Assembly (NCBI RefSeq): GCF_900157305.1
Contig: NZ_LS974202.1
Location: 2,542,001 to 2,606,000, forward strand
Length of the DNA stretch: 64,000 bases
From: Mesotoga infera
GTDB lineage: Bacteria > Thermotogota > Thermotogae > Petrotogales > Kosmotogaceae
Reading direction: 5' to 3'
Shown: piece by piece, positions 42,390 through 61,440 of the stretch
How positions within the stretch are numbered: the first letter of the stretch is position 1
Layout: every line of letters starts with the position of its first letter
Program-made: the position numbers and the translations under genes
Notes under the pieces: generated by a model
Database searches by the model: none
What the model saw: only the letters and a program-made list of their open reading frames with translations
What the model was told of the DNA's origin: nothing

Positions 42390-43772
42390 TTACAGGTCCT
42401 TAGATATTTTGAACCCGTAGAAAGCCAGAGCCGGTAGATGACTCATCGCATCGATGATCGAAAGATAGCCGGGATTGGCGCCGTACTGGTTGTGGACTAC
42501 CCCATGAACACCGGGCTCTCTTGAAAGACGGAGGAGTATCATATTGTCCTCGATCGAATAGTCTTCTATTTCGATCTCTCCAGATTCGTCGAAAATGGAG
42601 AGTGGAAGGTCTCCGGGTTTTAGGTCGAAGGCGTACAGTCTGGAACTGACGTTGTCGAAGATAAGACGAAGTTCTCTCCCTCCAGTCGCCAGGGCAGCGG
42701 CTATATCTGGCGCGTCGGCCTGGAGATCTCTTGAGAACAGGTGTTTGAGAACGCTTTTGGCGAGTCGCTCCCCGAGCATCACGTTGCCGTAAGAGCTGTT
42801 GTGGATATTGTCCGAAAGTGGCAGATCTATCGCCGGTACTACGAAGATTCCCGGAAGTTCCTTTGCTGCACATCTCTGGGCCTCCCTTACTCTCGACCAG
42901 CCTTCGTCGCCCATTCCCCAGGGTCCGGGATCGGCCACGAAACGGTTGAGCTGCACAGTGAAGAAGGGCAGGTTCGGAGTTGCTAGGTCCCGCCTGAGAG
43001 ATTTAACGAAATTGGCGAATCTTTCGCCATAAGTTTGACTTAGAGTAATTGTGGTATCGGAGCAACCCTGATACCAGAGCACACCCCTGAGTCTTCCGCA
43101 GCTTTTAACGATTTCCAGAAGGTTTCCGTATAGTTCTCCGCTCTCAGCCGGGTTCCATTGACCGAGACTCGAGCCTCCCAGCGAGGCCTGGATCAGGCCA
43201 ATTGGACTGTTCAACTCTCTTTTCAGGTATTTGGCAAAGCTCAGATAAGGCGAATGGCCGGGGTTGATCATCTCCGCGTTGATCGGATGGATCGATCCGG
43301 TAGAGTCGTTTAGAGGATGAGTTGCCAGGTCCCACTTCCCGTTGTTTCTAAGCACATGGACTCCGAGCTCGGGCGGATCGAAAATCGGGTCCTTACCGTA
43401 ACCGGCCGAGTTGCTTTGACCTGTTATGACGAAGAGTTCGCCCACGCCGATATGGTGTACCATGTCTCCCCTGAAGGCATATTCTATGCCAAGACCGTCG
43501 GGTTTCAAAGAGGTCTCTATCCTGTAGAGTCCACCGACAGGAAGCTCGAGCGATATCTCCCATCTTTGGCCCTCATGTATCGTGGCCGGAAGCCATGGCA
43601 GCACGGTATCGGAGCTTTCCTCGCGCACCACCCTGACGAAGACTATCTGTCTATCCGGTATCTCGCCGGAGGGGAGATACCTTCCCGCGAGCCCGACCTT
43701 CGCACTCCCGTTTTCCTGCTGGATTATCTGCCAGTCACAAGGACCGCTGTCGATATAACAACCCGGTTTCAT
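42390..43772 (-). CDS. SGNH-type esterase (sialate O-acetylesterase-like)
   Basis: A 460-residue protein. The SGNH block I is FVITGQSNSAGYG (catalytic Ser, about residue 117). ASLGGSSLGQW gives the oxyanion Gly, GVLWYQGCSD the Asn-like block, and DNIHNSSYGNVMLGERLA the catalytic Asp/His. There is an N-terminal beta domain of about 100 residues and no signal peptide, so it acts in the cytoplasm. Position as last gene of the leftward mannoside operon suggests that it removes acetyl groups from imported glycosides. ATG 43772 with GAGAGGGGGG upstream, overlapping the ROK gene by 4 bp. Confidence 0.82.
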   Translation of the reverse strand: MKPGCYIDSGPCDWQIIQQENGSAKVGLAGRYLPSGEIPDRQIVFVRVVREESSDTVLPWLPATIHEGQRWEISLELPVGGLYRIETSLKPDGLGIEYAFRGDMVHHIGVGELFVITGQSNSAGYGKDPIFDPPELGVHVLRNNGKWDLATHPLNDSTGSIHPINAEMINPGHSPYLSFAKYLKRELNSPIGLIQASLGGSSLGQWNPAESGELYGNLLEIVKSCGRLRGVLWYQGCSDTTITLSQTYGERFANFVKSLRRDLATPNLPFFTVQLNRFVADPGPWGMGDEGWSRVREAQRCAAKELPGIFVVPAIDLPLSDNIHNSSYGNVMLGERLAKSVLKHLFSRDLQADAPDIAAALATGGRELRLIFDNVSSRLYAFDLKPGDLPLSIFDESGEIEIEDYSIEDNMILLRLSREPGVHGVVHNQYGANPGYLSIIDAMSHLPALAFYGFKISKDL

Positions 43773-44713
43773 ACATTCCCCCCTCTCATGTATCTCTCGA
43801 CAAAGTATAACGCCAACCCTGAGAGGGTGCATCTCTCAGGATCTGTAGCCTTCAAAACCCCGGGAAGTCCAGCAATTCCCGGCACTTTCAAGGCTTTTTC
43901 AAGTTCCTCTTTTAGTGAGGGTGCTATGAAATCGAAAGCGCCGGAGATCTCCCCCCCGATTACTACGAGGTCGGGTTGAAAGAGCTCGACAAAAGGAACG
44001 AGTGCCTTTCCTAGAAGGCTTCCAGTTTCGCAAAAGAGTTCTATGCAGAGAGGATCGTTTTTCAAGGCCAGTTCGAAAAGATCCTTCACATCCAGATTGC
44101 CCGTGGAAGAGTTCGAAAATTCTCTATATCTTGCAAGTATTCCCCTCCGGGAGATCCTGTCGTCGAGTATGCCCTTCCCGCAGGGGAGGAACCCTATCCA
44201 GCCGTAGGGAGGCACTCCCCTTTCATTCTCTATTATCCTGCCATCCTCAACGAAAGCCGAACCCAGCCCCGTTCCTATCGTCAGTCCTATTACTTTCTTA
44301 GCTCCGCGCGCGGCGCCTTCAAGACATTGGCCCCGGGTGAAAGCCCAAGAGTCTGCATCAAAGAACACTGGAATCCTGTTGGCGAGGACTTCGTCACGGA
44401 AGAAGCTCTTAATATCGATCCCGTAGAGCGCTTCGTACTTTCCCACACCTTTGATGAGGCAGATTCCCCTTTCGTAATCGAAAGGCCCTGGAAAGGCAAG
44501 AACGAGACCGGATGGTTGGGAGCCCATTTCGTCGGCTTTTGCGAGAAGATCTATCACGATTTTGGAAAACACATTCAGGATGGTGCTTCTGGAGCCCCTG
44601 GAATCAATGGGAGTGTAGTCTATATTCGAAAGAAGACGCCCCTCGAAGTCGCAAAGGACCGATTTCACGGTCGTTCCCCCAATGTCGAGAGCGATTATCA
44701 CACCGAGATTCAT
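43769..44713 (-). CDS. ROK-family sugar kinase
   Basis: A 314-residue protein of the ROK family: ATP loop ALDIGGTTVKSVLCD, sugar site FDADSWAFTRGQCLEG with the catalytic Asp, and IGLTIGTGLGSAFVEDG. The usual zinc motif CxCGxxGCxE is not present; only LPCGKGIL stands in its place. No DNA-binding domain, so it is an enzyme. In this context mannokinase activity (mannose to mannose-6-phosphate) is likely. ATG overlaps the isomerase stop (ATGA). Confidence 0.85.
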   Translation of the reverse strand: MNLGVIIALDIGGTTVKSVLCDFEGRLLSNIDYTPIDSRGSRSTILNVFSKIVIDLLAKADEMGSQPSGLVLAFPGPFDYERGICLIKGVGKYEALYGIDIKSFFRDEVLANRIPVFFDADSWAFTRGQCLEGAARGAKKVIGLTIGTGLGSAFVEDGRIIENERGVPPYGWIGFLPCGKGILDDRISRRGILARYREFSNSSTGNLDVKDLFELALKNDPLCIELFCETGSLLGKALVPFVELFQPDLVVIGGEISGAFDFIAPSLKEELEKALKVPGIAGLPGVLKATDPERCTLSGLALYFVERYMRGGNV

Positions 44714-46464
44714 TTCAGGCGTGCCTTCACTATTACACACCTTTCCCCACCCCCGGCCTCGATCGTGTAACGAATTGCACTGGCTGGAACTATAACTGTC
44801 TCGGAATAGCCGAGCCTCAACTCCTTACCGCCCGAGATAATCTTCACGCTCTCTCCACCAACGAGCGTGAGTATGTGAAAGCGGCCACCGGTTTCGAAGG
44901 TGACACCCGTCTCAAGTTCGAGTCTGTAAACCTCATGGAAAAAGCTTCTGTCGGTCGCAATCAGGTATTCGGCCCAGCCTTCTCCGCAGGCTTTCAGCGA
45001 TGGCTTCGGTTTCAATTGTCTTTCCACCCGTTTTCCGCGTCTGTACGTTCTGATTACCTTGAAGGCGTGATCGATGTGGATAGGTCTCATAACGCCGTTC
45101 AAGTCCGGTCTGAGATGGTCGTAAATCTTGAAGGTGTATCTGTAAGTTGTCGCGCTGATCTCCAAAACCACCAGCCCTTCTCTGGAGCCGTGAACCGTGC
45201 CTGGGGGGATCATGAGGATATCGTGTCTGGCTACCGGGATGCTGTGAACGTATTGAGTATAATCGAAGGCGATGCCTTCTCTTTCGGCCTTAACGGCCGC
45301 AGCTCTGAATTGGTCGATGCTGGCGTTATCTCTCAGACCGAGGTTAACACGCCTATCGCTCTTGCAATCGACGATGTAGTACATCTCTCCCTGGTGGTAC
45401 CTCTCGTTGAAATTGAGTTTTATGTAGCCGGTCGGCGGATGGACCTGAATCGAGAGATCTCCACCGTCCATTGTGTCCAGATAATCGAATCTTATCGGGA
45501 ACTCTCCACCGAAAAGATCTCTGCTCACCTCGCCCATCACATTCTCGTGTGCGAGATCGAAGAAGAGGTTCCAGGGCAGTTCCAGCGTAGTTTCGTGGTT
45601 CTTGACCAGAAGCGACATCTCGGGAGCGATCACCTCGTAGCTCCAGGCGCAGTTAGGCCATTCTTCGGGAAGATGTCGCACTCTTTTCAACCACTGTCCT
45701 CCCCAGGGTCCCGGTTCGTAAATCGGTTTCAACCTGAAGGGCTTGGAGGAGATTTCACGCGCGATTTCTCTCAGATCTTCTACACCGAGTAAAACCGGAG
45801 TGTCTTCCATACCGGCATCGACATAGAAGTCGAGAGAGTCGAGGAGCCTTCTCCTGTGTTTTTCCGAAACTGGAAAGTCTATGTAGTACAGTCTTTTAGG
45901 ACCGATGCTCTGGGTTCCAAAAGCCGGCCCGGTCATTTTATAACGCCTTAAAGCCTCTTCCCTGGTTAGGTCGAAGTAAACGGTCAGATCGTACTCACCA
46001 CGCATGGCCACCTGTGCACAACCCCAGCCTACAACGAGTATCGCGTCCAACCGCTTCGATTCTCTCTCCCGTCCGATGTCGGCCTTGAGGACTGCGATAC
46101 TCTCACTCGAGAAAAGCGTCGCAATGTCGCGCCTGAAGACTTTGCCAAAAACAGCGTCCTCACCCAGATAACTGGCAAGAAGGCTTTCGATCTTTTCGTC
46201 GCTTCTTCTGCATTTATCGAAGTCGTAGATCTTTACCGCGAGAAGATTTCGGCCGGCAAACTCCTCGATACTTTCCATTAGTCTCTTCCAGTCGTTTCCT
46301 GTGAAACCGTCGATCGCGATAACGAAAGTCCCCTCCGGCCTCTTTCTCCGCCTCGCGAACAGAAACTCCAATATTCTCTCCATACCTTTCACGGCAAAAA
46401 TGTTCGCCGCCATGGAGATGTTGATCGCACCGGAAAAATCGATGGAAGAACTCAAATGTCTCAC
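44710..46464 (-). CDS. Mannose-6-phosphate isomerase with N-terminal kinase-like domain
   Basis: A 584-residue protein. Residues about 250-584 are a class I mannose-6-phosphate isomerase: zinc ligands in DLSIQVHPPTGY and ARHDILMIPPGTVHGSREG, with a C-terminal cupin (GGRFHILTLVGGESV). The first 230 residues look like a uridine kinase/P-loop fold, but the loop is VIAIDGFTGNDWKRL and lacks the GKS/T needed for nucleotide phosphate binding, so it is probably inactive or structural. Its start is GTG (GTGA overlap) or, with a better GGAGGGA spacing, TTG at 46455. Converts mannose-6-phosphate to fructose-6-phosphate. Confidence 0.85.
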   Translation of the reverse strand: MRHLSSSIDFSGAINISMAANIFAVKGMERILEFLFARRRKRPEGTFVIAIDGFTGNDWKRLMESIEEFAGRNLLAVKIYDFDKCRRSDEKIESLLASYLGEDAVFGKVFRRDIATLFSSESIAVLKADIGRERESKRLDAILVVGWGCAQVAMRGEYDLTVYFDLTREEALRRYKMTGPAFGTQSIGPKRLYYIDFPVSEKHRRRLLDSLDFYVDAGMEDTPVLLGVEDLREIAREISSKPFRLKPIYEPGPWGGQWLKRVRHLPEEWPNCAWSYEVIAPEMSLLVKNHETTLELPWNLFFDLAHENVMGEVSRDLFGGEFPIRFDYLDTMDGGDLSIQVHPPTGYIKLNFNERYHQGEMYYIVDCKSDRRVNLGLRDNASIDQFRAAAVKAEREGIAFDYTQYVHSIPVARHDILMIPPGTVHGSREGLVVLEISATTYRYTFKIYDHLRPDLNGVMRPIHIDHAFKVIRTYRRGKRVERQLKPKPSLKACGEGWAEYLIATDRSFFHEVYRLELETGVTFETGGRFHILTLVGGESVKIISGGKELRLGYSETVIVPASAIRYTIEAGGGERCVIVKARLK

Positions 46465-48317
46465 TCCCTCCGAATATCTCCGCTTCTTTTGAGCAGTCTG
46501 ACGAATCTGACCAGTTCATGGGGCTTCAAAATAAAGAGCCGCCCGCTCTCGCCTCCGGACAAAACATACTTCATGGCCCGAACCAGCTTGGTGAGATCCA
46601 GCCCCTTCGATGCTTCGCCGAAATAGCAGGGCGTCATTCCCCAGAAGGGTGAATCCAGACCTATTATGGCCCAAACACCTGATGGAACGTTATCGAAACT
46701 TCTTTCCCATTTTTTCACATCACTCATGGGCTCGAAACTCCAGTGAACCGTCTGCTGGTTCAACACCAAAAAGTCACCATCATCGTACAGTACGCGGGGC
46801 CACTCTCCCTCCTCCCTATAACTCACAGCATATTCGAAGCCAGCCTCTTTCAAGACGGTGAAGTCGGGCTCGGCACTTCTGTGCCTGTACTCCGGGCAGG
46901 CGTCCTGGAAAGAATAGTGGCCAACCGGTACGTTCGCCTCACCACAGTGCTTTGATATGATCTGCCTGGCTTTCAGCAGGGAATCAATGTAAACCTTACG
47001 CGGAAGGTAGCCTTTGGCCTCGGTGGCCACACCCAAACCGGCGCTGCTGAGAAGGATTTCACCCGAAGGAAAGATACCTCCCCTATCGCGTGGAATAAAG
47101 AACTGTTCGAGCGTCTCACCTGCGAAGTCCCACCAGTTCGCCGGGAAGGCTATTCCATCTCTTATCCCCTCGATAGAGTGTAGATCTAGATACCGGGGAA
47201 GTACAGGTAGATGACCAAGATCGGCCGCGTAGTTTATGAAGACGAAGGGTATGCCTCCCTCTTCTAGTTTCTTCTGGAGGTATTCGTCGGAAACCTCCTC
47301 CTTCCAGGGTGCCTTCGCCTTTTTTAGCCAGAGAGATGGTAGTTTTACTTTATCCTTCACGGTCAGACCAACTTCGACATCGTGCGCCAGAACAAGAATC
47401 ACCCCTCTCTTCGAGAGAGCCGATATCACACCATCGTCGTAAATCTGGCTTCCCCATACAATATTGTTCCCCGTCTTTTCTACCAGCTCCGAAATGACTG
47501 GAACGCTATCTCTCAGAGTCTTGAGGGCAGCAATCGGTAGTGTATCCTCTCTCAGGTATCTGGCCATCCAGCGTAGGGTGATCGGGTCGTTTCCCAGAGC
47601 CACACCCCGCCCTTTCCCGGCCCAGCGTCGGGATATTCTGCCAGTCAGATCTAGCAGTGTCTCTCCATCTTTCAGCTCCTCTATCGTATCTGTTTCAAAA
47701 CCCATACGGTCGAATTTCTCGGCCGCTTCATCGCCACAGCAGGCGAGGAAGAGCCGTTTCACCCCAAGCCCGCGAAGTTTTTCGAACTGCCTCTCTCCGG
47801 CTTCGAGGTGAATCGCGAGCGCTTCGCGATAGAGTATTTCCGGGTACAGGAAGCTGTCTATTCTTGAGCGGCCCGGTATCTTGAACGAGCCGAGATCTAC
47901 GGCCTCCAGAGGAAGATCCCTCTCGCGAGAGGGATAGACGACGGCCTCGGCCGGCAGAGGTTCATCGAAGCTATCGAAAAGCTCGACATACAGTTCCAAT
48001 AGTTCGTCAGAAGAGCGCACGAGAGACTGACAATTCCTAGCTTTGAAGAACCTCTCGAAGGGTATTTCTTCGCCCTCACCCATGGAGACGAAAAGTATCC
48101 TTTCGTAGAAATTGCTCAAAAAATAAAGCTGCTCCTCATGTCTGTTTCCGGCGAAAGGAAGGAAGTCGCCGATCCCGGCGAGACTGGGCCTTACCGAGAA
48201 GTAACCGTCGAAATCTATCTCTCTCTTCCTGCATAACCAGGCGATGACCGGAAGGGGCGCGACCCTGGCCGGGCAGCTTTCATGGCTGTAATAGAGGACG
48301 AGCTGAGGGATTTTCAT
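46461..48317 (-). CDS. Uncharacterised protein of 618 residues, first in the mannoside operon
   Basis: I do not recognise a family with confidence. The protein has no signal peptide or membrane helix. The C-terminal part contains GHYSFQDACPEYRHRSAEPD and a following EAGFEYAVSY segment, which reminds one of NodB/polysaccharide deacetylase-like barrels, though the standard metal-binding HxxxH is not seen. A middle segment has GVILVLAHDVEVG and FPANWWDFAGETLEQFF. Its position as the first gene after the divergent promoter and coupling to the isomerase gene (4-bp overlap) tie it to mannoside metabolism. ATG 48317 with AAGGAGG upstream. Confidence 0.7.
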   Translation of the reverse strand: MKIPQLVLYYSHESCPARVAPLPVIAWLCRKREIDFDGYFSVRPSLAGIGDFLPFAGNRHEEQLYFLSNFYERILFVSMGEGEEIPFERFFKARNCQSLVRSSDELLELYVELFDSFDEPLPAEAVVYPSRERDLPLEAVDLGSFKIPGRSRIDSFLYPEILYREALAIHLEAGERQFEKLRGLGVKRLFLACCGDEAAEKFDRMGFETDTIEELKDGETLLDLTGRISRRWAGKGRGVALGNDPITLRWMARYLREDTLPIAALKTLRDSVPVISELVEKTGNNIVWGSQIYDDGVISALSKRGVILVLAHDVEVGLTVKDKVKLPSLWLKKAKAPWKEEVSDEYLQKKLEEGGIPFVFINYAADLGHLPVLPRYLDLHSIEGIRDGIAFPANWWDFAGETLEQFFIPRDRGGIFPSGEILLSSAGLGVATEAKGYLPRKVYIDSLLKARQIISKHCGEANVPVGHYSFQDACPEYRHRSAEPDFTVLKEAGFEYAVSYREEGEWPRVLYDDGDFLVLNQQTVHWSFEPMSDVKKWERSFDNVPSGVWAIIGLDSPFWGMTPCYFGEASKGLDLTKLVRAMKYVLSGGESGRLFILKPHELVRFVRLLKRSGDIRRE

Positions 48318-48340
48318 GCACACCTCCTTAAAACGCTCAT

Positions 48341-48354
48341 TACAAGCATTTGCA
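48341..48354. promoter_or_regulatory. LacI-type operator, left copy
   Basis: TACAAGCATTTGCA matches 12 of 14 bases of the right copy core TGCAAGCGTTTGCA. It lies just before the start of the leftward operon. Confidence 0.55.
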
Positions 48355-48447
48355 AATAATGATGAATTTTAGAAGACTAGAAATAATTAATACGTCTATA
48401 CTATACAACAGAAGAGATTTATAAGATATATAAACTAGAGCAAGAAA

Positions 48448-48467
48448 AAATGCAAGCGTTTGCATTT
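48448..48467. promoter_or_regulatory. LacI-type operator, right copy
   Basis: AAATGCAAGCGTTTGCATTT is a palindrome with a central CG and one mismatched pair, the usual form for LacI/GalR regulators. The two operators are about 110 bp apart and flank an AT-rich promoter region (TATACTATAC near 48400, TATATAAAC near 48427). The lacI gene in this locus is the obvious partner. Confidence 0.75.
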
Positions 48468-48601
48468 ATAACCAATAATCGCATTTCATTTGCCGTGAAG
48501 CACCGAAAGTGGAGATTACCGGGTTCGAATAAGAAACTTCCGAAATGATAGAGTTTGTCAGGCAACACGGGCACCGAACGTATTCCGGGGAGGGATTTAA
48601 G

Positions 48602-49861
48602 GTGAAAAGACCATTACTGATTCTTTTTTTGATCACGTTGATGGTAGCCGTTGCCCTAGGGGCAGCTACGAAGGTGAAGTTCTGGCACATGTATCTTTCC
48701 GGTCCATCTAAGGAGATCATGGACGAAATCATCGCACAGTTCAACGAAACACACAAAGGGTCGATCGAGGTCGAGGATCTGGCAATATCCTTCTGGGACT
48801 ACTGGGACAAAATCAGGGTCGCGATGGCTGCGAAACAGGAGCCGGATGTCTTCTTGCACGATCTGGGCAACGTGGGCATGAGGGCCTCGACGGGTATTCT
48901 GTTAGATCTGAAGCCCTATCTGGTGGCAGCAGGTTTCGAACCTGATGAAATCTTTTTCGAAGGACCTCTGGAGATGTGTTCCTATCGCGGCGGCATCTAT
49001 GCTCTTCCGCTCGAGACGGACGTAAGGCTTCTCTTCTACAACAAAGGGCTTTTCAGGCAGGCGGGTCTCGATCCAGACAAACCGCCAACAAGCTGGGAAG
49101 AACTGCTCTCCTTTGCCGAGAAGCTCAATGTTCTCGACAAGAACGGTGAATACGAAATCGTCGGTTTCAACCCGCTTTACGGTCAGTCTTACTTCTGGAT
49201 GTACGTCTGGGGTAAGGGTGAGGATTTCATCACAGAAGACGGAAAAGTCGTCGTCAACAGCCCGGGTATAGTGCAAGCCCTTCAGGAGTGGGTCGCATTG
49301 ATCAACAAACTGGGGCTCGAAAAGCTTCTGGCTTTCGGTGCCAACTTTGGCTGGGGCGCGGCCGATGCCTTCATCGCAGGCAAGGTAGGAATGGGAATCC
49401 AGGTCGGCAATTTCATAACCGATCTTGCGACCTACGCGCCGGACCTTGATTATGGAATCGTCCAGATACCTTACCCTGTTCAGAACGCGACATGGTCCAA
49501 TGGCTTCTCCCTCGAGCTCTCATCAAGATCCAGGAACAAGATCGAAGCCGTCGAGTTCGCCCTTTACCTGTTGAGCGACGAGGTGCAACTGAAGCTCGCC
49601 CATGGGCTCTCTTCACTCATAGGCAACAAGAAAGCCGCGTACAAATCAGATCTTCTCGAAGACTCCCGGTGGAAGATGCAGATCGATGCTCTCGAGTTCA
49701 CGAAATTCAGACCCTTCGTTCTCGAAGCACCACTCTGGTACGAAACTTTGCAGGTCGCCACCGAGGAGGCCATCTATGGCAAAAAGACTCCCGAACAGGC
49801 TCTCAACGACGCACAGAAACTCATAGAAGCAGAGATTCAAAAATACAAAATGACTCACTGA
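48602..49861 (+). CDS. Sugar ABC transporter substrate-binding protein
   Basis: A 419-residue extracellular solute-binding protein (family 1). A signal peptide covers residues 1-22. Motifs include VKFWHMYLSGPSKEIMDEI, PDVFLHDLGNVG, YALPLETDVRLLFYNKGLF and GKVGMGIQVGNFI. The GTG at 48602 has GGGGAGGG 6-8 bases upstream; the frame is open further left without such a signal. It binds the glycoside for the two permeases that follow; no ATPase is in the locus, so a shared MsmK-type ATPase is likely. Confidence 0.93.
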   Translation: MKRPLLILFLITLMVAVALGAATKVKFWHMYLSGPSKEIMDEIIAQFNETHKGSIEVEDLAISFWDYWDKIRVAMAAKQEPDVFLHDLGNVGMRASTGILLDLKPYLVAAGFEPDEIFFEGPLEMCSYRGGIYALPLETDVRLLFYNKGLFRQAGLDPDKPPTSWEELLSFAEKLNVLDKNGEYEIVGFNPLYGQSYFWMYVWGKGEDFITEDGKVVVNSPGIVQALQEWVALINKLGLEKLLAFGANFGWGAADAFIAGKVGMGIQVGNFITDLATYAPDLDYGIVQIPYPVQNATWSNGFSLELSSRSRNKIEAVEFALYLLSDEVQLKLAHGLSSLIGNKKAAYKSDLLEDSRWKMQIDALEFTKFRPFVLEAPLWYETLQVATEEAIYGKKTPEQALNDAQKLIEAEIQKYKMTH

Positions 49862-49871
49862 GAGTGATCAC

Positions 49872-49920
49872 GGGTAGCGGGACACGGCATTTCCGAAGTC
49901 CCGCTACCCTTCATTTTTCT
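49872..49920 (+). promoter_or_regulatory. Stem-loop between binding protein and permease genes
   Basis: A perfect 12-bp stem GGGTAGCGGGAC / GTCCCGCTACCC (49872-49883, 49898-49909) followed by TTCATTTTTCT. It can act as a leaky terminator or protect the upstream mRNA, giving more binding protein than permease. Confidence 0.7.
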
Positions 49921-49938
49921 GAAGGGAGAGCCTGAAAG

Positions 49939-50826
49939 ATGGGAAAAAAGCGAAGCAAGTACTTCAGAAGAAAAAATCTGGCCGGCTACCTCTTCGCAGC
50001 GCCCTGGCTGATTGGGCTGTCGGTCTTCGTTCTAGCTCCAATACTGGCGACACTCTTTCTAAGTTTCACGAGTTACGATATGATCAACGCTCCACGCTGG
50101 ATAGGATTGACCAACTACAAAATACTTTTCACGCTCGATCCCGGCTTCTGGAAGGCCCTGGGCAACACTTTCTACTACATGTTCGGCTCGGTCTTTCTAA
50201 AGGTCTTCGCCGGCCTCGTCTTCGCCCTGCTTCTGAGCAGCGCTCTCAAGGGAATGAGGATATTCAGGACTATATACTTCCTGCCGGTAGTCCTTCCCTC
50301 TATCCCTGTTATGTTTCTCTGGATGATGATGTTCAATCCCAGGAGTGGCCTAATAAATCAGTTGCTGGGACTGGTGGGGATAAAGGGTCCTCTCTGGCTG
50401 AACTCGCCCCAGTGGTCCAAACCGGCGATGATCCTCATGAGCCTCTGGGGGATAGGCGGAATAATAGTCATCTTTCTGGCCGGTCTTCAGGATGTTCCCG
50501 AGTATCTCTACGAAGCGGCCGAACTCGATGGGGCTAACAAGCTCCAGATGTTCTGGCGTATCACCGTTCCAATGATAATGCCCGTGATCTTCTTCAACGT
50601 GGTAACCGGTCTCATAGCGGCCTCTCAGGTTTTCGCGGAATCTTACATAATGACGGCCGGTGGTCCTCTTGAATCGACTACCTTCGTCAATCTGAAGATC
50701 TACCTGCTCGCCTTCAAGGATGTGAGGATGGGTTATGCCTCGGCGATGTCCTGGGTGATGTTTATGATACTCGTACCGATGACTATCCTTCTTTTCAGGA
50801 TCTCAAGAAGATGGATGGACTACTGA
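49939..50826 (+). CDS. Sugar ABC transporter permease, MalF/UgpA type
   Basis: A 295-residue permease with six membrane helices. The EAA loop is EAAELDGANKLQMFWRITVP (about residues 193-212). ATG with GAAGGGAGAG upstream. It pairs with the next gene product. Confidence 0.93.
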   Translation: MGKKRSKYFRRKNLAGYLFAAPWLIGLSVFVLAPILATLFLSFTSYDMINAPRWIGLTNYKILFTLDPGFWKALGNTFYYMFGSVFLKVFAGLVFALLLSSALKGMRIFRTIYFLPVVLPSIPVMFLWMMMFNPRSGLINQLLGLVGIKGPLWLNSPQWSKPAMILMSLWGIGGIIVIFLAGLQDVPEYLYEAAELDGANKLQMFWRITVPMIMPVIFFNVVTGLIAASQVFAESYIMTAGGPLESTTFVNLKIYLLAFKDVRMGYASAMSWVMFMILVPMTILLFRISRRWMDY

Positions 50827-50839
50827 CGGGAGGTGACCC

Positions 50840-51682
50840 ATGAAAAGCCTCAACAGAATGAAATCAATAAGGAGTATCACTATATACGGGATTCTTGGTT
50901 TTTTCAGCGTGGTCTATCTGATACCTCTCTTCTGGATGGTATCGACTTCGCTCAAGCCTGACCCACAGATCATGTCTATACCGATGCGGTGGCTGCCAGA
51001 CCCTCCCCAGTGGAGCAACTACGCCAAGGCGGTCAACAGTTTTCCTTTCTTGAGGTACTTCCTCAACACGCTTTTTCTGACGGTGATGAATGTTCTGGGT
51101 AACACTCTCACGGCTTCTCTGGTGGCTTACAGCTTTTCCAAATTGCAGTGGAGGGGCAGAAACCTCATCTTCTACCTGACAATAGCCACCATGTTCATTC
51201 CAGGACAGGTACTCATAATACCGGTCTATATACTCTTTACGCAGTTAGGATGGGTTAATAGTTACCTGCCTCTGATCGTGCCAGCTTTCTGCGGGGGCGG
51301 TGCCTTCAATATCTTCTTGCTGAGGCAGTTCTTCATCTCCATTCCTGACGAGTTGATGGAATCGGCCAGAATTGACGGCGCATCGGAACTGAGGATCTTC
51401 ACCAAGATAATCCTGCCGCTCTCCAAACCGGCGCTTTTCACTGTGGCGCTCTTCACGGTCGTTTTCACATGGAACGATTTCTTCGGGCCGCTGATCTATC
51501 TCCACGATCCTTCGATGTGGACTCTGGCGATAGGATTGCGTGGTTTCCAGCAGCAGTATTCGACCAACTGGAACCTTTTGATGGCCGCCTCGACTCTCAC
51601 GGCCCTACCGTTGATAATCCTTTATTTCACGGCTCAGGACAAGATGATGCGCGGCTTCACTTTGAGGGCAGGAATAAGATGA
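50840..51682 (+). CDS. Sugar ABC transporter permease, MalG/UgpE type
   Basis: A 280-residue permease with six membrane helices and the EAA loop ESARIDGASELRIFTKIILP (about 174-193). The ATG has GGGAGGTGA upstream and lies 13 bp after the partner gene. Confidence 0.93.
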   Translation: MKSLNRMKSIRSITIYGILGFFSVVYLIPLFWMVSTSLKPDPQIMSIPMRWLPDPPQWSNYAKAVNSFPFLRYFLNTLFLTVMNVLGNTLTASLVAYSFSKLQWRGRNLIFYLTIATMFIPGQVLIIPVYILFTQLGWVNSYLPLIVPAFCGGGAFNIFLLRQFFISIPDELMESARIDGASELRIFTKIILPLSKPALFTVALFTVVFTWNDFFGPLIYLHDPSMWTLAIGLRGFQQQYSTNWNLLMAASTLTALPLIILYFTAQDKMMRGFTLRAGIR

Positions 51683-51701
51683 GAAACGGGGGAATCGAAG
51701 C

Positions 51702-53867: not shown

Positions 53868-53872
53868 TTGCT

Positions 53873-54859
53873 ATGAGTATCGGTCTGAAGGAGATCGCAG
53901 AACTAGTTGGAGTATCGGTTTCCACGGTTTCCAGGGCTTTGAGGGATGATCCGAGAGTCAACAGAAAGACTAAAGAGAGGATCGTCTCCATAGCCAAAAA
54001 TATGAACTATCTGCCCAACCAGGCCGCCAAGAGTCTGGTAACGAAGAAAACGATGACGATAGGTCTGGTCCTACCGAACCTGAGGTCTTTCATGCACGAT
54101 ATATTCGACGGACTCGAGAGTGTTTGCTCGCCGGCCGGCTACAACATCCTGCTCGGCGTCTCCGACAACGACCCAGCTAAGGAGATGCGTGAGCTCAAGC
54201 TACTTCTGGAAAAACGCGTGGACGGTCTGATCCTCTTCTACGTGGGAGGAATCTTCAACCAGGCATCCATAAGGTTTCTCAGCAGTATAAGCGTTCCGAT
54301 AGTCCTCCTGGACAGGTACATACCCCGTTCCCGTTTCGATTTCGTGGTGAGTGACAACCGCAACGGCTCAAAAATGCTCGTTGAACACCTCGTTTCGAAG
54401 GGGAAGGATAAGATCGCTTTCATCTCACAGAAAGAGGATGCGTCGGCCATAAAGGAGAGGATGGACGGTTTTGTCGATGGAGTACTCGAGTGCGGGATAA
54501 GTCTGCATCCGAAGTACATGGTCTGCGGGGAACTGTTGAGAATGGAAAACGGCTACGAAAGCACAAAAAAACTGATGGCGCTTGACGATCCGCCACAGGC
54601 AATAGTCGCAAGCACCGGAGACATAACGCTGGGCGTTGTCAAATACCTTCTGGAGAATCCGGAGCTGGAGAGTAAAATCACGGTCTGCGGATTCGACGAC
54701 TTCGATTTTCTCTCCTTCCTGAAGATTCCAGTGACAACCGTGGCTCAGAAGACCAGAGAAATGGGCCGGCAGGCGGCGACGATTCTCCTTGAAAGGTTGA
54801 ACGGAGACCGGGGCGAACAGAGAAGGATCTTCCTTGAGACTGTACTCGTCGAGCGATAG
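53873..54859 (+). CDS. LacI-family transcriptional regulator
   Basis: A 328-residue repressor. The helix-turn-helix is at the N-terminus (LKEIAELVGVSVSTVSRALR) with hinge YLPNQAAKSL near residue 50. The ligand domain includes IGLVLPNLRSFMHDIFDG, DGLILFYVGG and TVCGFDDFDFLSFL. ATG at 53873 with GAAAGGTGA upstream; GTG at 53864 also in frame. It lies within the operon it likely controls through the two operators at 48341-48467. Confidence 0.93.
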   Translation: MSIGLKEIAELVGVSVSTVSRALRDDPRVNRKTKERIVSIAKNMNYLPNQAAKSLVTKKTMTIGLVLPNLRSFMHDIFDGLESVCSPAGYNILLGVSDNDPAKEMRELKLLLEKRVDGLILFYVGGIFNQASIRFLSSISVPIVLLDRYIPRSRFDFVVSDNRNGSKMLVEHLVSKGKDKIAFISQKEDASAIKERMDGFVDGVLECGISLHPKYMVCGELLRMENGYESTKKLMALDDPPQAIVASTGDITLGVVKYLLENPELESKITVCGFDDFDFLSFLKIPVTTVAQKTREMGRQAATILLERLNGDRGEQRRIFLETVLVER

Positions 54860-54877
54860 GATTTGTGAGGCGATTCC

Positions 54878-57562
54878 ATGAGAGTAGTTTCGATGGGAGG
54901 AGACTTTAAATTAGAGATACTCTTCACCGATCTGTTGAGGAGGGCCGGCAATGCGCCGAGGCTGGTGGTGGTGCGTAACCTTTCCGGAAAAGCCTGCGAA
55001 ATCTCTCTTTCACAGGCCGATACAAGGTGTGAAGCAACCGTCGCCCCGGGCCAATCGACATGGCTGTTCTCTGTCGAAAGAGGCCCCGTGAAAATCGTCG
55101 TTTTGTCTGATCGAAAGATGTTGGAAAAATGCCTGGAGCTTGAGCCACCGAGGACTGTGGAGTTCGATCTCATTATGTTCTCGCACGTTGATCTGGGCTA
55201 CACTGCCTCTATAAGTGAAGTAGAGAAGCTCCAGGCCGTCTATACAGCTAAGGCTCTGGAGTATCACCGCAACAGTCTGGCCTTCCCGGAAGAGTCCCGG
55301 TTCAGGTGGAATATAGAGACCACATGGGCACTGTCGTGCTTCGAGAAGGTTCATGGTCCCGACCAGACGCAGAAAGTCCACGACCTGTTGAAAGTGGGCG
55401 AGTTCGGCATAGGCGCTCTCTTCCTTCACCATTACGCCGACAGAGCGGAATTCGAAGAACTCTTCCACTCTCTGAGAAAGGTAAGATCTCTGAAGGCGGC
55501 GGGTATATCTATCAAGAGCGCCTTTCTAAGCGACGTGCCGGGAATGAGCACCGGTCTTCTCGAACTGCTCGCCGAAAGCGGTGTAGAAAATCTCTTCATG
55601 TCGATAAACAACTTCGTGGCACCCTTCAAAGAGTATACGAACCTGCGATCACCCTTCTGGTGGAAACTCCCTGGAGGAAAGAGAATACTAACATGGTTCA
55701 CGGATGATCCAAAATGGGCATATATAGAAGGTTACAGGTTCTTCGGATCGGATTTAAAGACGCTCGAAGGCGAAATTCTGGAAAAACTAGTCGCGATGGA
55801 TGGCAGGGGATACGGACTGCCCGTCTTTGCCATTCCAATGGCGATCGACAACAGGGAACCGGTCTTCATCCCGGTCGAACTGATAAAAGAGTGGAACCTG
55901 ATCTGGCGAAATCCCCGCATTACAACGGCTACCATCGACGGCTTTTTCGAAAGGCTGAGATCCTTCGCTTCAAATCTTCCGGAAATAGAGGGTGAATTCA
56001 ACGGCTGGTGGACTTCGAATGTTCTGGCCTATCCACGTGAGAACTCTCTCTCTTCGATCACTTTCTCCATGCTACACGAGGCTGCTCTGCTGAACCACGT
56101 TTCGGGTGGCGGTCATGAGGAGGAAATCAAGGAAGGTTTCGAGCTGCTGAGCGGGTTCAACGAGCATTCAGGTGGTGGCGGTCTTTATCTGTCTAAAGAC
56201 CCGGAAGCGATCCTGGAGGCGGTCTCCCAGGGTTTCGGCTGGATCTTCCGGGCCAGCCGCCTGTCAGGTAGAATACTCGTTGAACTTCGAGAAAGCCTGT
56301 TCGGCTCCGGCAGATACATCACAGTATTAAACCCGACCGGTGTAGCCAGAAACGATTTCTGTGTCATGGACTGCGATGATCCAGATCTTGGTTTGAAGGC
56401 GTCCGATGGCACCTATGTTCCTTCGCTCTTTTACAGCGGTAAGCTTTACTTCTACCCGGGGAGACTGGAAGCCTTCGAACACCGGAGCTTTCTGCCTGGT
56501 AAAGTTGTGAGAGGCGCCAGAGAGACATCCCATTCGAAAGGCGGTCTCGATATCACGACCTGCGACTACGAGCTCTCCTTCAACGACAGGGGTGAACTGT
56601 GTTCGGTCGTGGTCAGAGAAAGCGACCGGGAACTTCTCTCTCCTCCTCTGACTGCCGGAAGGTTGAAGATCGTCCGTCTGCCCGTAAACCCTGTCGATAA
56701 CCTGTCCGACGCCATCAACCACGACGAGCTTTACACAGGAAGGACGCCCCCGGGTAGCGAGGAGGATTATCTGCCTCTGGAATGTGGTCACAGGGTCTTT
56801 GAATCTGCCTGGGGTACGATAGTAGAGTTCGAACCGCTCGATCTCTACTGCAGACCCTTCAGAAAGACGTATCTCCTGCCGGCGAAGTCCGGGGAGATAA
56901 TTCTAGCCGTCAGATTCAACTATGTATATGGCGTCGGTCCGTCGGACTTTCTCTTCCTCGAAGTACCTCTCGGAATGGAGCGGCCGAAGATAAGCTACCG
57001 CACCTCCGGAAGAATTGCGAGGCTCGAAGACCTAATAAGCGGCAGTGGTACGGATACTTTGACGGTCCTGGGAGCTTTGAGAATAGAAAGCCCGAATGAT
57101 CGCGATTGCTCGCTCAACATCGGCCTGGAAGGCATCAACCTTGTAGATTTCGAATCTCCCTCGCCACTGCAGTTCAGACCGATCCATCAGGCCAGCGGCA
57201 GGCTTTTCTTCAGGCTCTTCAGCGGAAATCTTCAAAATCGTTTTGCCAGCCCCTTCCTAAACGGTGAACCTATGGAATTCGCGGTAAGACTGTCGATCAA
57301 ATCGTCAGGGCTATGCCGATACTCTGCCGCGATCAGACACCCCCTCTCGGTCTTCAGGAGCGACCTCAGAAAGGAACCGTTACTGGCAGGCTTGAGGGCG
57401 AGCGAGAACGTCGAATTGTTTTTCGGGCGCGACAATTCGACGAAGACAGCTCTCTTCGCCAAGGAAATTGCGGGAGAGACGGGTTATCTCTACACAGGCG
57501 AGGGGATCAGATATACTCTGGAACCTTACAGTTTCATACGAGTTAGAGGAGCGGAGGGATGA
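54878..57562 (+). CDS. Divergent GH38-like protein, cytoplasmic
   Basis: An 894-residue protein without a signal peptide. After about 100 residues of beta-rich N-terminal domain, IMFSHVDLGYTASISEVEKL carries the HxD of GH38. FLSDVPGMSTGLLELL provides the Asp and GFNEHSGGGGLYLS the His. The C-terminal half is beta-rich, as in GH38 C-terminal domains. It differs strongly from the canonical alpha-mannosidase encoded downstream and may have another linkage or sugar as substrate. It follows lacI by 18 bp. Confidence 0.72.
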   Translation: MRVVSMGGDFKLEILFTDLLRRAGNAPRLVVVRNLSGKACEISLSQADTRCEATVAPGQSTWLFSVERGPVKIVVLSDRKMLEKCLELEPPRTVEFDLIMFSHVDLGYTASISEVEKLQAVYTAKALEYHRNSLAFPEESRFRWNIETTWALSCFEKVHGPDQTQKVHDLLKVGEFGIGALFLHHYADRAEFEELFHSLRKVRSLKAAGISIKSAFLSDVPGMSTGLLELLAESGVENLFMSINNFVAPFKEYTNLRSPFWWKLPGGKRILTWFTDDPKWAYIEGYRFFGSDLKTLEGEILEKLVAMDGRGYGLPVFAIPMAIDNREPVFIPVELIKEWNLIWRNPRITTATIDGFFERLRSFASNLPEIEGEFNGWWTSNVLAYPRENSLSSITFSMLHEAALLNHVSGGGHEEEIKEGFELLSGFNEHSGGGGLYLSKDPEAILEAVSQGFGWIFRASRLSGRILVELRESLFGSGRYITVLNPTGVARNDFCVMDCDDPDLGLKASDGTYVPSLFYSGKLYFYPGRLEAFEHRSFLPGKVVRGARETSHSKGGLDITTCDYELSFNDRGELCSVVVRESDRELLSPPLTAGRLKIVRLPVNPVDNLSDAINHDELYTGRTPPGSEEDYLPLECGHRVFESAWGTIVEFEPLDLYCRPFRKTYLLPAKSGEIILAVRFNYVYGVGPSDFLFLEVPLGMERPKISYRTSGRIARLEDLISGSGTDTLTVLGALRIESPNDRDCSLNIGLEGINLVDFESPSPLQFRPIHQASGRLFFRLFSGNLQNRFASPFLNGEPMEFAVRLSIKSSGLCRYSAAIRHPLSVFRSDLRKEPLLAGLRASENVELFFGRDNSTKTALFAKEIAGETGYLYTGEGIRYTLEPYSFIRVRGAEG

Positions 57563-57563
57563 A

Positions 57564-58796
57564 ATGACTTCAAGAGAGAGAATAATCGAAGCACTCAATC
57601 ACAGAGAAGCCGACCGGGTTCCCCTGGATCTTGGGGGCATGAGATCGACTGGTATACACGCAATAGCTTACGGAAAGCTCAAAGAATACATGGGACTTTC
57701 CGATAGGTCGGTTAAGATCTTCGACGTCTTCCAGCAGCTGGCGCTCGTCGAGGAAGAAGTGAGGCGGCGCGTCCATTCGGATGTAGTTGAACTCAAGAGG
57801 CTTGACGGTGGATTCGATACAAGAATAGATAAATGGAAAGAGTACGATATGTTCAAAGACGGCGGAAGGTATCTTTTGCCCGACGGTTTCGATCCCGTGA
57901 CGATGCCTGACGGCTCCAGGGCGATAGTCAGGGAGGGTAGGATCGTCGCCAGCATGCCGAAGGGCGGATTCTATTTCGATGGGAAGTACTTTCCGCTGAC
58001 CGGTGTGCAGGACAGAAAAGCGATCGACGAAGCCGTCTATCCAGACCTTACTGAAAGAGAGATCGCTTTTTTGAAGGACCAGCTGGGAGAATTGAGGAGC
58101 TCTACCGACTGTGCCGTGATAGGAACTTTCGGCGGGAACTTTCTTGAGGCCGGCCATAGCTACTTCGGCTACCAGGAATTCATGGAAAGAATGATAACGG
58201 ACCGGAAGCTGGTTGAGTACTTTCTCGACAGACTTCTCGAGAAGTACACGATCGAACTCGAGAGATACCTCTTAGAAGTCGGCGGTGATATCGACCTTAT
58301 ACAAATCGGTGACGACTACGGGACACAGGAAAACACTCAGATCTCGCCACAGGCATTCAAATCGCTCTTCAAGCCACGCCTGAAGGCCCTCTGTGATTTC
58401 ATTCATTCGAAGAGACCCAACCTTTTCATCTTTCTCCATTCCTGCGGATCGATCTATCCCTTCATAAGAGATTTCATAGAAGCCGGTGTTCAGGTTCTCA
58501 ACCCCATCCAGACAAACGCGAAGAACATGGATCCTACCCTGCTCAAACGGGAGTTCGGGAACGAAATAGTTCTCTGGGGAGGAGGTTGCGATACGCAGCA
58601 CCTGTTGCCATTCGGGACTCTAGAAGAGATCGAAGAGGATGTCAAGAAACGCATAGACATACTCGCCCCTGGAGGTGGGTTCGTTTTCGCCTCGATCCAC
58701 AATATACAGATGGAGATACCACCGGAAAAGATTCTTCGGCTCTTTGACACGGCTTACGAATACGGAAGAGGTGTGTACGGTGGCCGGAAAAGATAG
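57564..58796 (+). CDS. Uroporphyrinogen decarboxylase-family protein
   Basis: A 410-residue URO-D/MtaA-superfamily TIM barrel. It begins TSRERIIEALNHREADRVPLD, typical of the family, and has FLHSCGSIYPFIRDFIEAGV with the His/Cys pair that binds zinc in methyltransferases of the MtaA/CmuA kind. Haem synthesis genes are not near, so true HemE function is unlikely. It is translationally bound between two GH38 genes (1-bp gap before, 17-bp overlap after). A role in sugar or methyl-group chemistry is inferred. ATG 57564 with GGAGGG upstream. Confidence 0.8.
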   Translation: MTSRERIIEALNHREADRVPLDLGGMRSTGIHAIAYGKLKEYMGLSDRSVKIFDVFQQLALVEEEVRRRVHSDVVELKRLDGGFDTRIDKWKEYDMFKDGGRYLLPDGFDPVTMPDGSRAIVREGRIVASMPKGGFYFDGKYFPLTGVQDRKAIDEAVYPDLTEREIAFLKDQLGELRSSTDCAVIGTFGGNFLEAGHSYFGYQEFMERMITDRKLVEYFLDRLLEKYTIELERYLLEVGGDIDLIQIGDDYGTQENTQISPQAFKSLFKPRLKALCDFIHSKRPNLFIFLHSCGSIYPFIRDFIEAGVQVLNPIQTNAKNMDPTLLKREFGNEIVLWGGGCDTQHLLPFGTLEEIEEDVKKRIDILAPGGGFVFASIHNIQMEIPPEKILRLFDTAYEYGRGVYGGRKR

Positions 58797-61440
58797 AGTC
58801 GTCCTCGTTATCTCCCATACTCACTGGGACAGAGAGTGGTACGAGTCTTTCCAATCTTTCAGGTACAGACTCGTAAAGGCTATAGACAGACTCATAGAGG
58901 TTCTCCAGGAGAACGCCGATTACGGCTGCTTCAACCTCGACGGTCAGGTAGTCGTACTGGAAGACTATCTGGAAATAAGGCCAGAAATGCGGCCGGTCCT
59001 GCAAAGACTGGTGAAATCGGGGAAAATCGGCATAGGGCCGTGGTACGTTCAGACCGATGAGTTTCTTTCCGATGGAGAAGCCCTGATACGAAACCTCCTG
59101 CTGGGTGCTCAATTGGCCGAAGAGTTCGGTGAGGTGCAGAGACTGGCCTATCTTCCCGACACTTTCGGTCACAACTCCCAGATGCCGCAGATAGCGAGGC
59201 AGTTCGGTATATCATCTTCGCTTATATGGCGCGGTGTGTCCGGTGACGATTGGCCGTGGGAGTTTATATGGAAGGGTGCCGATGGCAGCTGTCTCTACAC
59301 TTATAGACTTCCCGAGAGGCAGGGGTATTGCAACATGGCCTTCACTCCCGAGGGAAAGCCTATAGATTCGGCTTTTTTCATCGGTTCAGCCACGGAGTTC
59401 ATGAAGAATTCGCTCACTGGCCTAGTCGTTCTTATGGATGGATGCGATCACGTGCAGCCCGATGGGTCTATTCTTCCACTCATAGATTTCCTGGCAGGCG
59501 CTGAGGATTCTCTTTCCTGCAGACAGGTTCTCTTCAACGATCTGTCTGAAGAACTCGAAAGAAGGATACCACTCTGCGAAGGGATAGAGGTTCTTCGGGG
59601 CGAGTTGAGGGGGGTGAACACTTCCAGGAGGGGATACTTCAACTTCATTCTGCCTAACGTTCTCTCTTCAAGGTGCAACAACAAGCGGGAAAACTTTGAC
59701 ACGCTCAACTGGCTTGAAAGCTACGCCGAACCACTGGCTTCTCTGGCCTGGCTCAACGGCAAGAAGTACCCCAGTGGTTTCCTACGCGAAGCCTGGAAAC
59801 TGCTTCTCCAGAACCTCGCCCATGACAGCATCGGTGGTTGCAGCATCGATGAGGTCCATCTGGACATGTCGCGCAGATACTCACACTCAGTGGAGATAGC
59901 CAGAAATGTCGCCTTCGATTCTCTGGCAGCTCTCTGTTCTGTCACACCTGAAGGATCAAACGGCTCTTTCGTTGTTTTCAACTCTTCGCAGTATTCCAGG
60001 GATGAGATCGAGATACATCTCGACCTTCCGGCGATGGTTATCGGAAATCCCCCGAGAAGGCCGGTGATGATAGACGAGAAGGGCGAAGAGGTAGAGTTCC
60101 AGATCTCTTCGATGAATGAAGTCGTGAAAGCCCTAAATTACCTCGGTAAATCGGCGCCCATCGAGAAAGTAGTCTCCGTTAAGTTCTACATAAAATCGAA
60201 GATAGAAGGGCTTTCCTTTAAAAGGTTCTACATCTCTCCTTCAGAGATGCCAGTGAGTCACAGCCACTCCGGGACGGATAACTCTCTCCGGTTGGAAAAC
60301 GAGCACATGAGCGTGAACGTTCTGCCAGATGGAACAATCGAAGTCCTCAACAGGGTAACAGGTGAAAAGCTCTTCACAAACCTCTTCGAGGATGGCGGGG
60401 ACTGCGGAGATGGGTACGTTTACTCAAAGCCGCTTTTCGATACACTTGTCACGAGTTCCGGTTGTCTTAAGGCTATAGAAGTAATCGAAAATGGGCCTCT
60501 GGAGAAGGCAATAAGGTTGCGGTACTCCCTGCCAGTTCCGGCAGGCCTGTCGGAAAATGGCCGGAAAAGGAGCTATGACAGGAAAGAGATGCCCATCCAG
60601 TGTGTCCTGAAACTCATAAAGACAAACGGTGTTCTGGAGATCGAGACCGAAATCGAAAACAATTGCGAGAACCACAGGGTTCAGGTTAATTTCTGGAGTG
60701 AGAGACCTGGAAAGGCTCTTTTCTACAAAACCCCCTTCGACATAGTAAAGGCTGCAAAGGATGAAATCTCTCGATTCAACCCAAACTGGATAGAGGACGA
60801 GCCGGTTGCGAGGCCCAACAACGGTCTCTTCGGAGAGATAGAAAGCATCGACAATTTCAAGGGATTTGCCGTGAGCGCCAGGGGGATCAACGAATTCGAA
60901 GGTTCGGTGCATGGCCTCAGGCTGACTCTTTTCAGGGCCGTCGGTCATATCGCCTCTCCATATCCACTCTCGAACATGAAAAGACCTGCCGGCCCGAAGA
61001 TAGAGACTCCCGGGGCGCAGATGAAAGGACGGTTGTTCTTCAATTATTCGGTCTTTTTCATAGATTCGCTAGAAGAGGCACTGAAGAAAAGTTCTCTGTA
61101 CCTGAAAAAACCTCTGGCACTCGCTTTCACTGGAAGGCTTCCCGAAGCCCCTCTTACTGTTGATAGCTCAACAACAGAAATTACGGCAATGAAGAAGTCA
61201 GAAAGCAGGGAGAGTTTCATCCTGAGACTGGCCAACCTTTCTACGGAAAAGGACCGGGTAGAAATAAGGCTGAGAGAGGGGCTCTTCAGGAAGGCCTTTC
61301 TTTGCACGGCCAACGAGAAGAGAAGCGGAGAAGTTCCAATCGAGAACGGTGTGGTATGCATTGCTTGCGGACCGAAAAAGGTCGTAACACTCGAACTGGA
61401 GGTCAACGGCAGACTGACACTCTCCGATTGGCAGGAGTAA
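58780..61440 (+). CDS. Alpha-mannosidase, glycoside hydrolase family 38
   Basis: An 886-residue cytoplasmic enzyme. The GH38 signature is canonical: ISHTHWDREWYESF (zinc ligands His, Asp), LPDTFGHNSQMPQI (nucleophile Asp) and LAHDSIGGCSIDEVH (His ligand). The middle helical domain and C-terminal beta sandwich have normal length. GTG at 58780 has AGAGGTG 7 bases upstream and overlaps the previous gene by 17 bp; an upstream in-frame ATG at 58675 is less likely because it lies deep in that gene. It hydrolyses alpha-mannosides to mannose for the ROK kinase and isomerase in the divergent operon. Confidence 0.95.
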   Translation: MAGKDRVVLVISHTHWDREWYESFQSFRYRLVKAIDRLIEVLQENADYGCFNLDGQVVVLEDYLEIRPEMRPVLQRLVKSGKIGIGPWYVQTDEFLSDGEALIRNLLLGAQLAEEFGEVQRLAYLPDTFGHNSQMPQIARQFGISSSLIWRGVSGDDWPWEFIWKGADGSCLYTYRLPERQGYCNMAFTPEGKPIDSAFFIGSATEFMKNSLTGLVVLMDGCDHVQPDGSILPLIDFLAGAEDSLSCRQVLFNDLSEELERRIPLCEGIEVLRGELRGVNTSRRGYFNFILPNVLSSRCNNKRENFDTLNWLESYAEPLASLAWLNGKKYPSGFLREAWKLLLQNLAHDSIGGCSIDEVHLDMSRRYSHSVEIARNVAFDSLAALCSVTPEGSNGSFVVFNSSQYSRDEIEIHLDLPAMVIGNPPRRPVMIDEKGEEVEFQISSMNEVVKALNYLGKSAPIEKVVSVKFYIKSKIEGLSFKRFYISPSEMPVSHSHSGTDNSLRLENEHMSVNVLPDGTIEVLNRVTGEKLFTNLFEDGGDCGDGYVYSKPLFDTLVTSSGCLKAIEVIENGPLEKAIRLRYSLPVPAGLSENGRKRSYDRKEMPIQCVLKLIKTNGVLEIETEIENNCENHRVQVNFWSERPGKALFYKTPFDIVKAAKDEISRFNPNWIEDEPVARPNNGLFGEIESIDNFKGFAVSARGINEFEGSVHGLRLTLFRAVGHIASPYPLSNMKRPAGPKIETPGAQMKGRLFFNYSVFFIDSLEEALKKSSLYLKKPLALAFTGRLPEAPLTVDSSTTEITAMKKSESRESFILRLANLSTEKDRVEIRLREGLFRKAFLCTANEKRSGEVPIENGVVCIACGPKKVVTLELEVNGRLTLSDWQE

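Follow-up and report, generated by a model that had tools for sequence, protein, structure and literature searches.

Known Systems and the Mesotoga infera Locus

Two kinds of described system come close to the locus considered here, which occupies positions 42390-61440 of a 64,000-nucleotide stretch of Mesotoga infera DNA (the window; contig NZ_LS974202.1, positions 2,542,001 to 2,606,000) and combines GH38-type proteins with a protein of the URO-D/MtaA superfamily, called URO-D below. The first kind comprises corrinoid-dependent methyltransferases. In acetogens, O-demethylases have three or four components, namely MtvB, OdmB or VdmB, a corrinoid protein, a methyltransferase II and an activating enzyme. 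Type 1 mlp clusters likewise contain several UroD-family proteins, a corrinoid protein and a Ram/RACE activator (Kountz and Balskus, PMC10418091). A His-Cys-Cys site marks the sulfur and selenium transferases, whereas oxygen-type enzymes lose one or both Cys (PMC10418091); zinc is absent from the O-demethylase of Moorella and from the haloalkane enzyme CdmB (PMC13222342).

The second kind comprises alpha-mannan modules built on GH38 enzymes. A reduced core of a GH38-like protein, an isomerase, a ROK kinase and a sugar transporter is found on plasmids of Deinococcus (two), Streptomyces, "Arthrobacter citreus" and Parabacteroides. Two of these modules adjoin alpha-mannan families, the Streptomyces one with GH76 and the Parabacteroides one with GH92 and an MFS transporter. 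The Mesotoga locus shares this functional core, often in similar gene order, whereas the plasmid examples seen have no URO-D, no corrinoid genes and no relative of a 618-aa protein of the locus (U618).

The locus is, on balance, probably a substrate-induced system for O-methylated and probably O-acetylated alpha-mannosides, with URO-D as the putative demethylating subunit. It would thus unite an alpha-mannan locus and a corrinoid O-demethylase, each of a known kind, in a joint route that was not found described. Like the acetogen enzymes, the corresponding locus of a related genome (G015) holds a UroD-superfamily methyltransferase I candidate, a corrinoid protein and a RACo-type activator. It differs from them in that this set lies in an alpha-mannoside operon and not among genes for aromatic methyl ethers, in that its methyltransferase II candidate is MtaA-like and not of the folate type, and in being known from genes alone.

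Gene Content of the Locus

The window's genome (G000) is 2.97 Mb in a single contig. Gene content, synteny, GH38 catalytic residues, operator-like sites and the presence and linkage of corrinoid components are read from it and its relatives directly. The sequence-only reading had described two operons diverging from a LacI-operator region and encoding an importer, three GH38-type proteins, a URO-D-family protein, an SGNH esterase, a ROK kinase, a mannose-6-phosphate isomerase and a 618-aa protein. All these genes are present, the operons diverge from the intergenic interval 48324-48598, and two palindromic LacI-type sites lie in that gap. Two details were refined: the esterase belongs to the SASA family (PF03629), and the 618-aa protein has 618-620 aa. 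The leftward operon runs from U618 through the isomerase and the ROK kinase to the SASA esterase, with overlapping gene ends; the rightward one runs from the sugar-binding protein (SBP) through two permeases, GH38a, LacI, GH38b and URO-D to GH38c. The genes are as follows.

42390..43772, minus strand: SASA-family carbohydrate O-acetylesterase without signal peptide (PF03629, 160.7 bits against a gathering score of 24.8)
43769..44740, minus strand: ROK-family sugar kinase, probable mannokinase (PF00480, 81.9 bits)
44710..46464, minus strand: long class-I mannose-6-phosphate isomerase with an extra N-terminal part (NCBIfam manA TIGR00218, 38.7 bits, below the cut-off of 116.2)
46461..48323, minus strand: U618, 618-620 aa, function unassigned (no Pfam, NCBIfam or PDB match)
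48599..49861, plus strand: ABC importer sugar-binding protein (PF01547, 120.6 bits)
49939..50826, plus strand: ABC importer permease 1 (PF00528; orthologs 86-97% identical)
50840..51682, plus strand: ABC importer permease 2 (PF00528)
51702..53867, plus strand: GH38a, exported divergent GH38-type protein (PF01074, 85.6 bits; HxD, D and H catalytic residues)
53864..54859, plus strand: LacI-family regulator (PF00356 and PF13377)
54878..57562, plus strand: GH38b, cytoplasmic divergent GH38-type protein (PF01074, 32.4 bits)
57564..58796, plus strand: URO-D/MtaA-superfamily protein, proposed methyltransferase I (PF01208, 82.8 bits; alignment to 4ay7; neighbours of its relatives)
58783..61440, plus strand: GH38c, full-length cytoplasmic GH38 alpha-mannosidase (PF01074, PF09261, PF07748 and PF17677)

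Some of these starts are corrected ones, that of URO-D being most likely 57564, that of GH38c near 58783 and that of SASA near 43772. Since GH38b stops at 57562, two positions before the URO-D start, and GH38c begins within the end of URO-D, translation of the three is probably coupled.

The URO-D Protein and Its Zinc Site

URO-D is placed in its superfamily by PF01208; its matches to MtaA-subfamily NCBIfam models are below cut-off, and its best PDB match, 4ay7, is an MtaA-type structure (methylcobalamin:coenzyme M methyltransferase). Identity with HemE was considered and rejected, as no match to the hemE equivalog TIGR01464 appeared up to E = 0.1. In the phylum search URO-D falls in a tight clade of 13 proteins. 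The idea that the mannoside-locus copies form a clade of their own was also dropped: on the tree they are intermixed with the copies from other clusters.

The zinc site retains His293 and Cys295 (LHSCGS), both invariant throughout the clade, and the third MtaA ligand, a Cys, is replaced by Gly in all 11 aligned proteins. The His-Cys-Cys site of type 1 mlp enzymes is therefore incomplete in the window's protein, which argues against a sulfur or selenium methyltransferase. From these residues an ether oxygen is judged the likelier target and, with mannosidases all around URO-D, a methoxy group on mannose would be the simplest donor.

A sulfur or selenium role of the mlp type nonetheless deserves to be weighed, and is judged quite improbable. 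The Mesotoga-type clusters described below do pair several URO-D-family proteins with a corrinoid protein and RACo, which is the make-up of mlp clusters (PMC10418091), and their MtaA-like protein carries HIC and SSGC motifs, that is, His-Cys-Cys. Against this, every aligned member of the window's URO-D clade is without the third Cys, and a second URO-D of the G015 locus carries Asp where the first Cys would be (HSD). Moreover, no sulfur or selenium genes were seen in the mannoside loci, and the surroundings of the G015 and G041 clusters are sugar genes.

Linkage to Corrinoid Partners

A direct tie between URO-D and corrinoid-system genes is found in the G015 mannoside locus, which contains a complete set. 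A RACo activator (PF14574, 220 bits) stands at one end, the second URO-D precedes URO-D, and a corrinoid protein (PF02310, 106 bits; PF02607, 71 bits) and an MtaA-like transferase follow GH38c. More widely, 8 of the 13 clade members are clustered with corrinoid-system genes (six Mesotoga-type clusters, G041 and G015), and the other five lie within the mannoside locus with corrinoid partners elsewhere in the genome. In the six Mesotoga-type genomes the URO-D member is accompanied by an MtaA-like protein and RACo; the G001 cluster adds, within 10 kb, a methionine-synthase-activation-like protein, another URO-D and a corrinoid protein. In G041, URO-D is flanked by a corrinoid protein on one side and a ROK regulator on the other, and MtaA-like, RACo, ABC transporter and SIS-protein genes lie nearby.

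In G000 each partner has a single clear match, outside the locus: the corrinoid protein at C1:509750-510376 (73% identity), RACo at C1:527231-528958 (42% identity) and the MtaA-like protein at C1:2881704-2882792 (56% identity), with a CobW-type GTPase after the last, an order also seen in G015. A fourth GH38 gene, a canonical one, begins 12 bp downstream of RACo. This pairing, with 8-12 bp between the two genes, is seen in G000, G003 and G007 and represents a second link between mannosidases and corrinoid genes. Two genomes of the genus of G015 (g3) that have no such locus, G011 and G016, are also without RACo and MtaA, G016 being only 83% complete. As methyltransferase II partner only MtaA-like proteins, partly fused to thioredoxin-like domains, were found; a folate-type enzyme was not searched for. 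No MttB-type methyltransferase is present in G000.

Some further features of these genes were observed. A CobW-type GTPase follows the MtaA-like gene in G007 as well as in G000 and G015. A C-terminal thioredoxin-like extension is present on the MtaA-like proteins of G000 (L077:9683-11056, with a Thioredoxin_3 match) and G041 (L064:11838-13223), and may indicate that methyl transfer includes a protein-thiol step. At C1:672105-675372 (L076:4104-7371) in G000, genes for a B12-binding protein, a URO-D protein and a GGDEF protein overlap, possibly as a corrinoid-methyl or B12-linked signalling unit.

Conservation and the Alternative of an Ordinary Mannan Locus

All 12 genes are kept in the same order in two genomes of the same genus (G004 and G005) and in one of another genus of the family (G015), at 43-97% identity. 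In G007 the U618-to-SASA and LacI-to-GH38c pieces are found on small contigs. Such conservation of order and content argues that the locus is not a chance assembly. U618 was found in only five of the 103 Thermotogota genomes, and the joint occurrence on which the sequence-only reading had staked itself is seen, as five genomes have U618, URO-D and the GH38 proteins. SASA orthologs, too, are found in the related genomes. In G003 a remnant left by internal deletions (C56; L056:14474-17614) retains intact SASA and URO-D genes, between which lie C-terminal fragments of ROK (71 residues) and GH38b (42 residues); GH38c is missing.

An ordinary alpha-mannan or N-glycan locus, in which URO-D is a passenger or has an unrelated job and acetylation is the sole decoration, is an unlikely explanation. 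It draws on the core module, which recurs in Deinococcus, Arthrobacter, Streptomyces and Parabacteroides and there has neither URO-D nor U618 nor corrinoid genes, and on the survival of URO-D in G003, where most of the locus has disappeared. It accords poorly with the position of URO-D, which in G015 immediately precedes GH38c and in G000, G004, G005 and G007 lies between GH38b and GH38c, and with the presence of the whole corrinoid set inside the G015 locus and the link of RACo to another GH38 gene in three genomes.

The GH38 Proteins and Alpha-Mannoside Use

The locus very probably serves alpha-mannoside use in general. The three GH38-type proteins match the GH38 N-domain model with 85.6, 32.4 and 119.7 bits, and the zinc-binding HxD, the nucleophile Asp and the later His are found in all of them and in distant relatives, plasmid-borne ones included. 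Only the 119.7-bit protein, GH38c, also has the middle and C-terminal domains; over most of its length it resembles GH38 enzymes of known structure, the best being 3lvt, 5kbp and 2wyh. GH38a and GH38b, related to each other (hhalign 99.4%), differ from these enzymes in matching the N-terminal model alone and in the altered sequence around their motifs (FSHxDxGxT, EHS/EHT). GH38a, which starts at 51702, has a signal peptide as judged by eye; the other two have none.

The ROK kinase and the isomerase would complete a route to fructose-6-phosphate, as had been proposed. This route is well supported at the level of genes, since distant phyla have the same module, in two cases next to GH76 or GH92. 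The isomerase scores are weak (18 bits with Pfam, below cut-off, besides the manA score given above), and the same form of about 580 aa is annotated elsewhere as class I mannose-6-phosphate isomerase next to ROK and GH38-like genes. No Pfam model matches residues 1-240 of the isomerase (44710-46464); isomerases of comparable length are encoded in distant mannoside modules too.

The substrate might instead be mannosylglycerate or another alpha-mannosyl aglycone, with the methyl on the aglycone, as in a methyl glycoside or in a mannoside of a methoxylated aromatic. The only NCBIfam match of GH38c is indeed mannosylglycerate hydrolase (MngB, 428.8 bits), and methoxylated aromatics are the substrates of the known UroD O-demethylases (PMC13222342). 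That score is far under the equivalog cut-off of 1138, however, and GH38c strongly matches the three GH38 structures; homologous modules carry GH76 or GH92, and no glycerate or aromatic genes lie within the locus. Such an aglycone is accordingly very improbable.

Proposed Use of Methylated Mannosides

For methylated mannosides we infer the following reactions, together with the methylated substrate itself and the pairing of URO-D with its corrinoid partners in G000. GH38a would act outside the cytoplasm, and the SBP and permeases would import oligomannosides by means of a shared ATPase, none being encoded within the locus. The cytoplasmic SASA esterase would strip acyl groups, and GH38b and GH38c would free mannose units. 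URO-D, as methyltransferase I, would transfer the methyl group of methoxy-mannose to the cob(I)alamin form of the corrinoid protein, from which the MtaA-like protein would take it, and the RACo-type activator would re-reduce the cofactor. Mannose would then be phosphorylated by the ROK kinase and isomerised to fructose-6-phosphate. The earlier suggestion of a decorated substrate gains partial support and is narrowed: methylation gains from the tie between the URO-D clade and corrinoid genes, also inside the G015 locus, and for acetylation the evidence is the esterase. O-Methylated mannose has been reported in Chlorella and mollusc N-glycans and in an O antigen (PMC6344472, PMC8699351, PMC9445017).

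Several observations weigh against this proposal. The corrinoid partners of G000 lie outside the locus and are without a copy of its operator, and the MtaA-like one among them carries a fused thioredoxin-like domain. In G015 the MtaA-like partner is without the zinc-site His, which weakens the acceptor step. G003 keeps URO-D and SASA after losing the importer and GH38a-c, so that URO-D may serve another purpose; the RACo-GH38 pair is retained there. Around the six Mesotoga clusters that carry this URO-D, no sugar genes are obvious, and the proposal leaves U618 without an explanation. Because most compared genomes belong to one family, the cases of linkage are not all independent. Finally, no characterised UroD-family sugar demethylase was found in the literature searched. 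Titles and abstracts, with subscription journals mostly uncovered, gave nothing relevant on corrinoid-dependent sugar demethylation or on corrinoids with mannosidases.

The wider proposal is that a polysaccharide-utilisation locus houses anaerobic, B12-dependent demethylation of methylated sugars, in which UroD-family enzymes would be the sugar O-demethylases and U618 a further enzyme. It is more tentative, and its chance is put at a little less than even. To our knowledge, no role has been assigned to the UroD-family proteins that occur in sugar loci. If true, the proposal would give them a testable function, would widen the substrate range of corrinoid O-demethylases to sugars and would explain how anaerobes could use methylated mannose from algae, molluscs and O-antigens in the absence of O2. 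As the G015 locus is compact and has all parts together, it is directly testable.

Regulation

The two operator-like sites of the intergenic gap are the following.

48340..48355, no strand: LacI-type palindromic operator, minus-operon side, TTACAAGCATTTGCAA
48450..48465, no strand: LacI-type palindromic operator, plus-operon side, ATGCAAGCGTTTGCAT; similar sites in three relatives

Through these sites the LacI protein would repress both operons, and the locus would be induced by its substrate. In the equivalent gap, G005 and G015 have comparable sites and G004 has degenerate ones. The stronger site, at 48450, has its only exact match genome-wide here; near matches are otherwise confined to the same site read in reverse and to copies in a CRISPR array, and the operator search found no regulon members elsewhere in G000. 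The arrays at C1:1305000-1308600 (L092) have the repeat GTTTCGAATCAACCAAAGAGGGATATAAAC, and two identical spacers carry the near-operator sequence. At the start of the rightward operon, the SBP reading frame is listed from 48545, and a GTG start at 48599 is preceded by the Shine-Dalgarno-like GGGGAGGG.

U618 and Neighbouring Genes

Outside Thermotogota, U618 was searched for in plasmids only. A scan of genome contigs with U618 gave a single relative, which was known already. A distant relative (26% identity) lies in exopolysaccharide biosynthesis operons of Azospirillum plasmids (L017:14992-17136, L018:11992-14136), and U618 may, as a guess, act on polysaccharide. AlphaFold, run on a two-sequence alignment, gave a pLDDT of 35 and no usable fold. 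A deacetylase was considered and rejected: the U618 profile has no similarity to CE4 deacetylases or to the three GH38 groups in the test that related GH38a to GH38b.

Beyond the locus, 61488-62489 of the window encodes a probably secreted protein with three cytochrome-b5-like domains, adjoining a KDPG aldolase gene. Its repeats read GGNHxxxHxAGxEL and not the classic b5 HPGG, so that heme binding is uncertain. G003 has an ortholog with 86% identity that borders its decayed locus.

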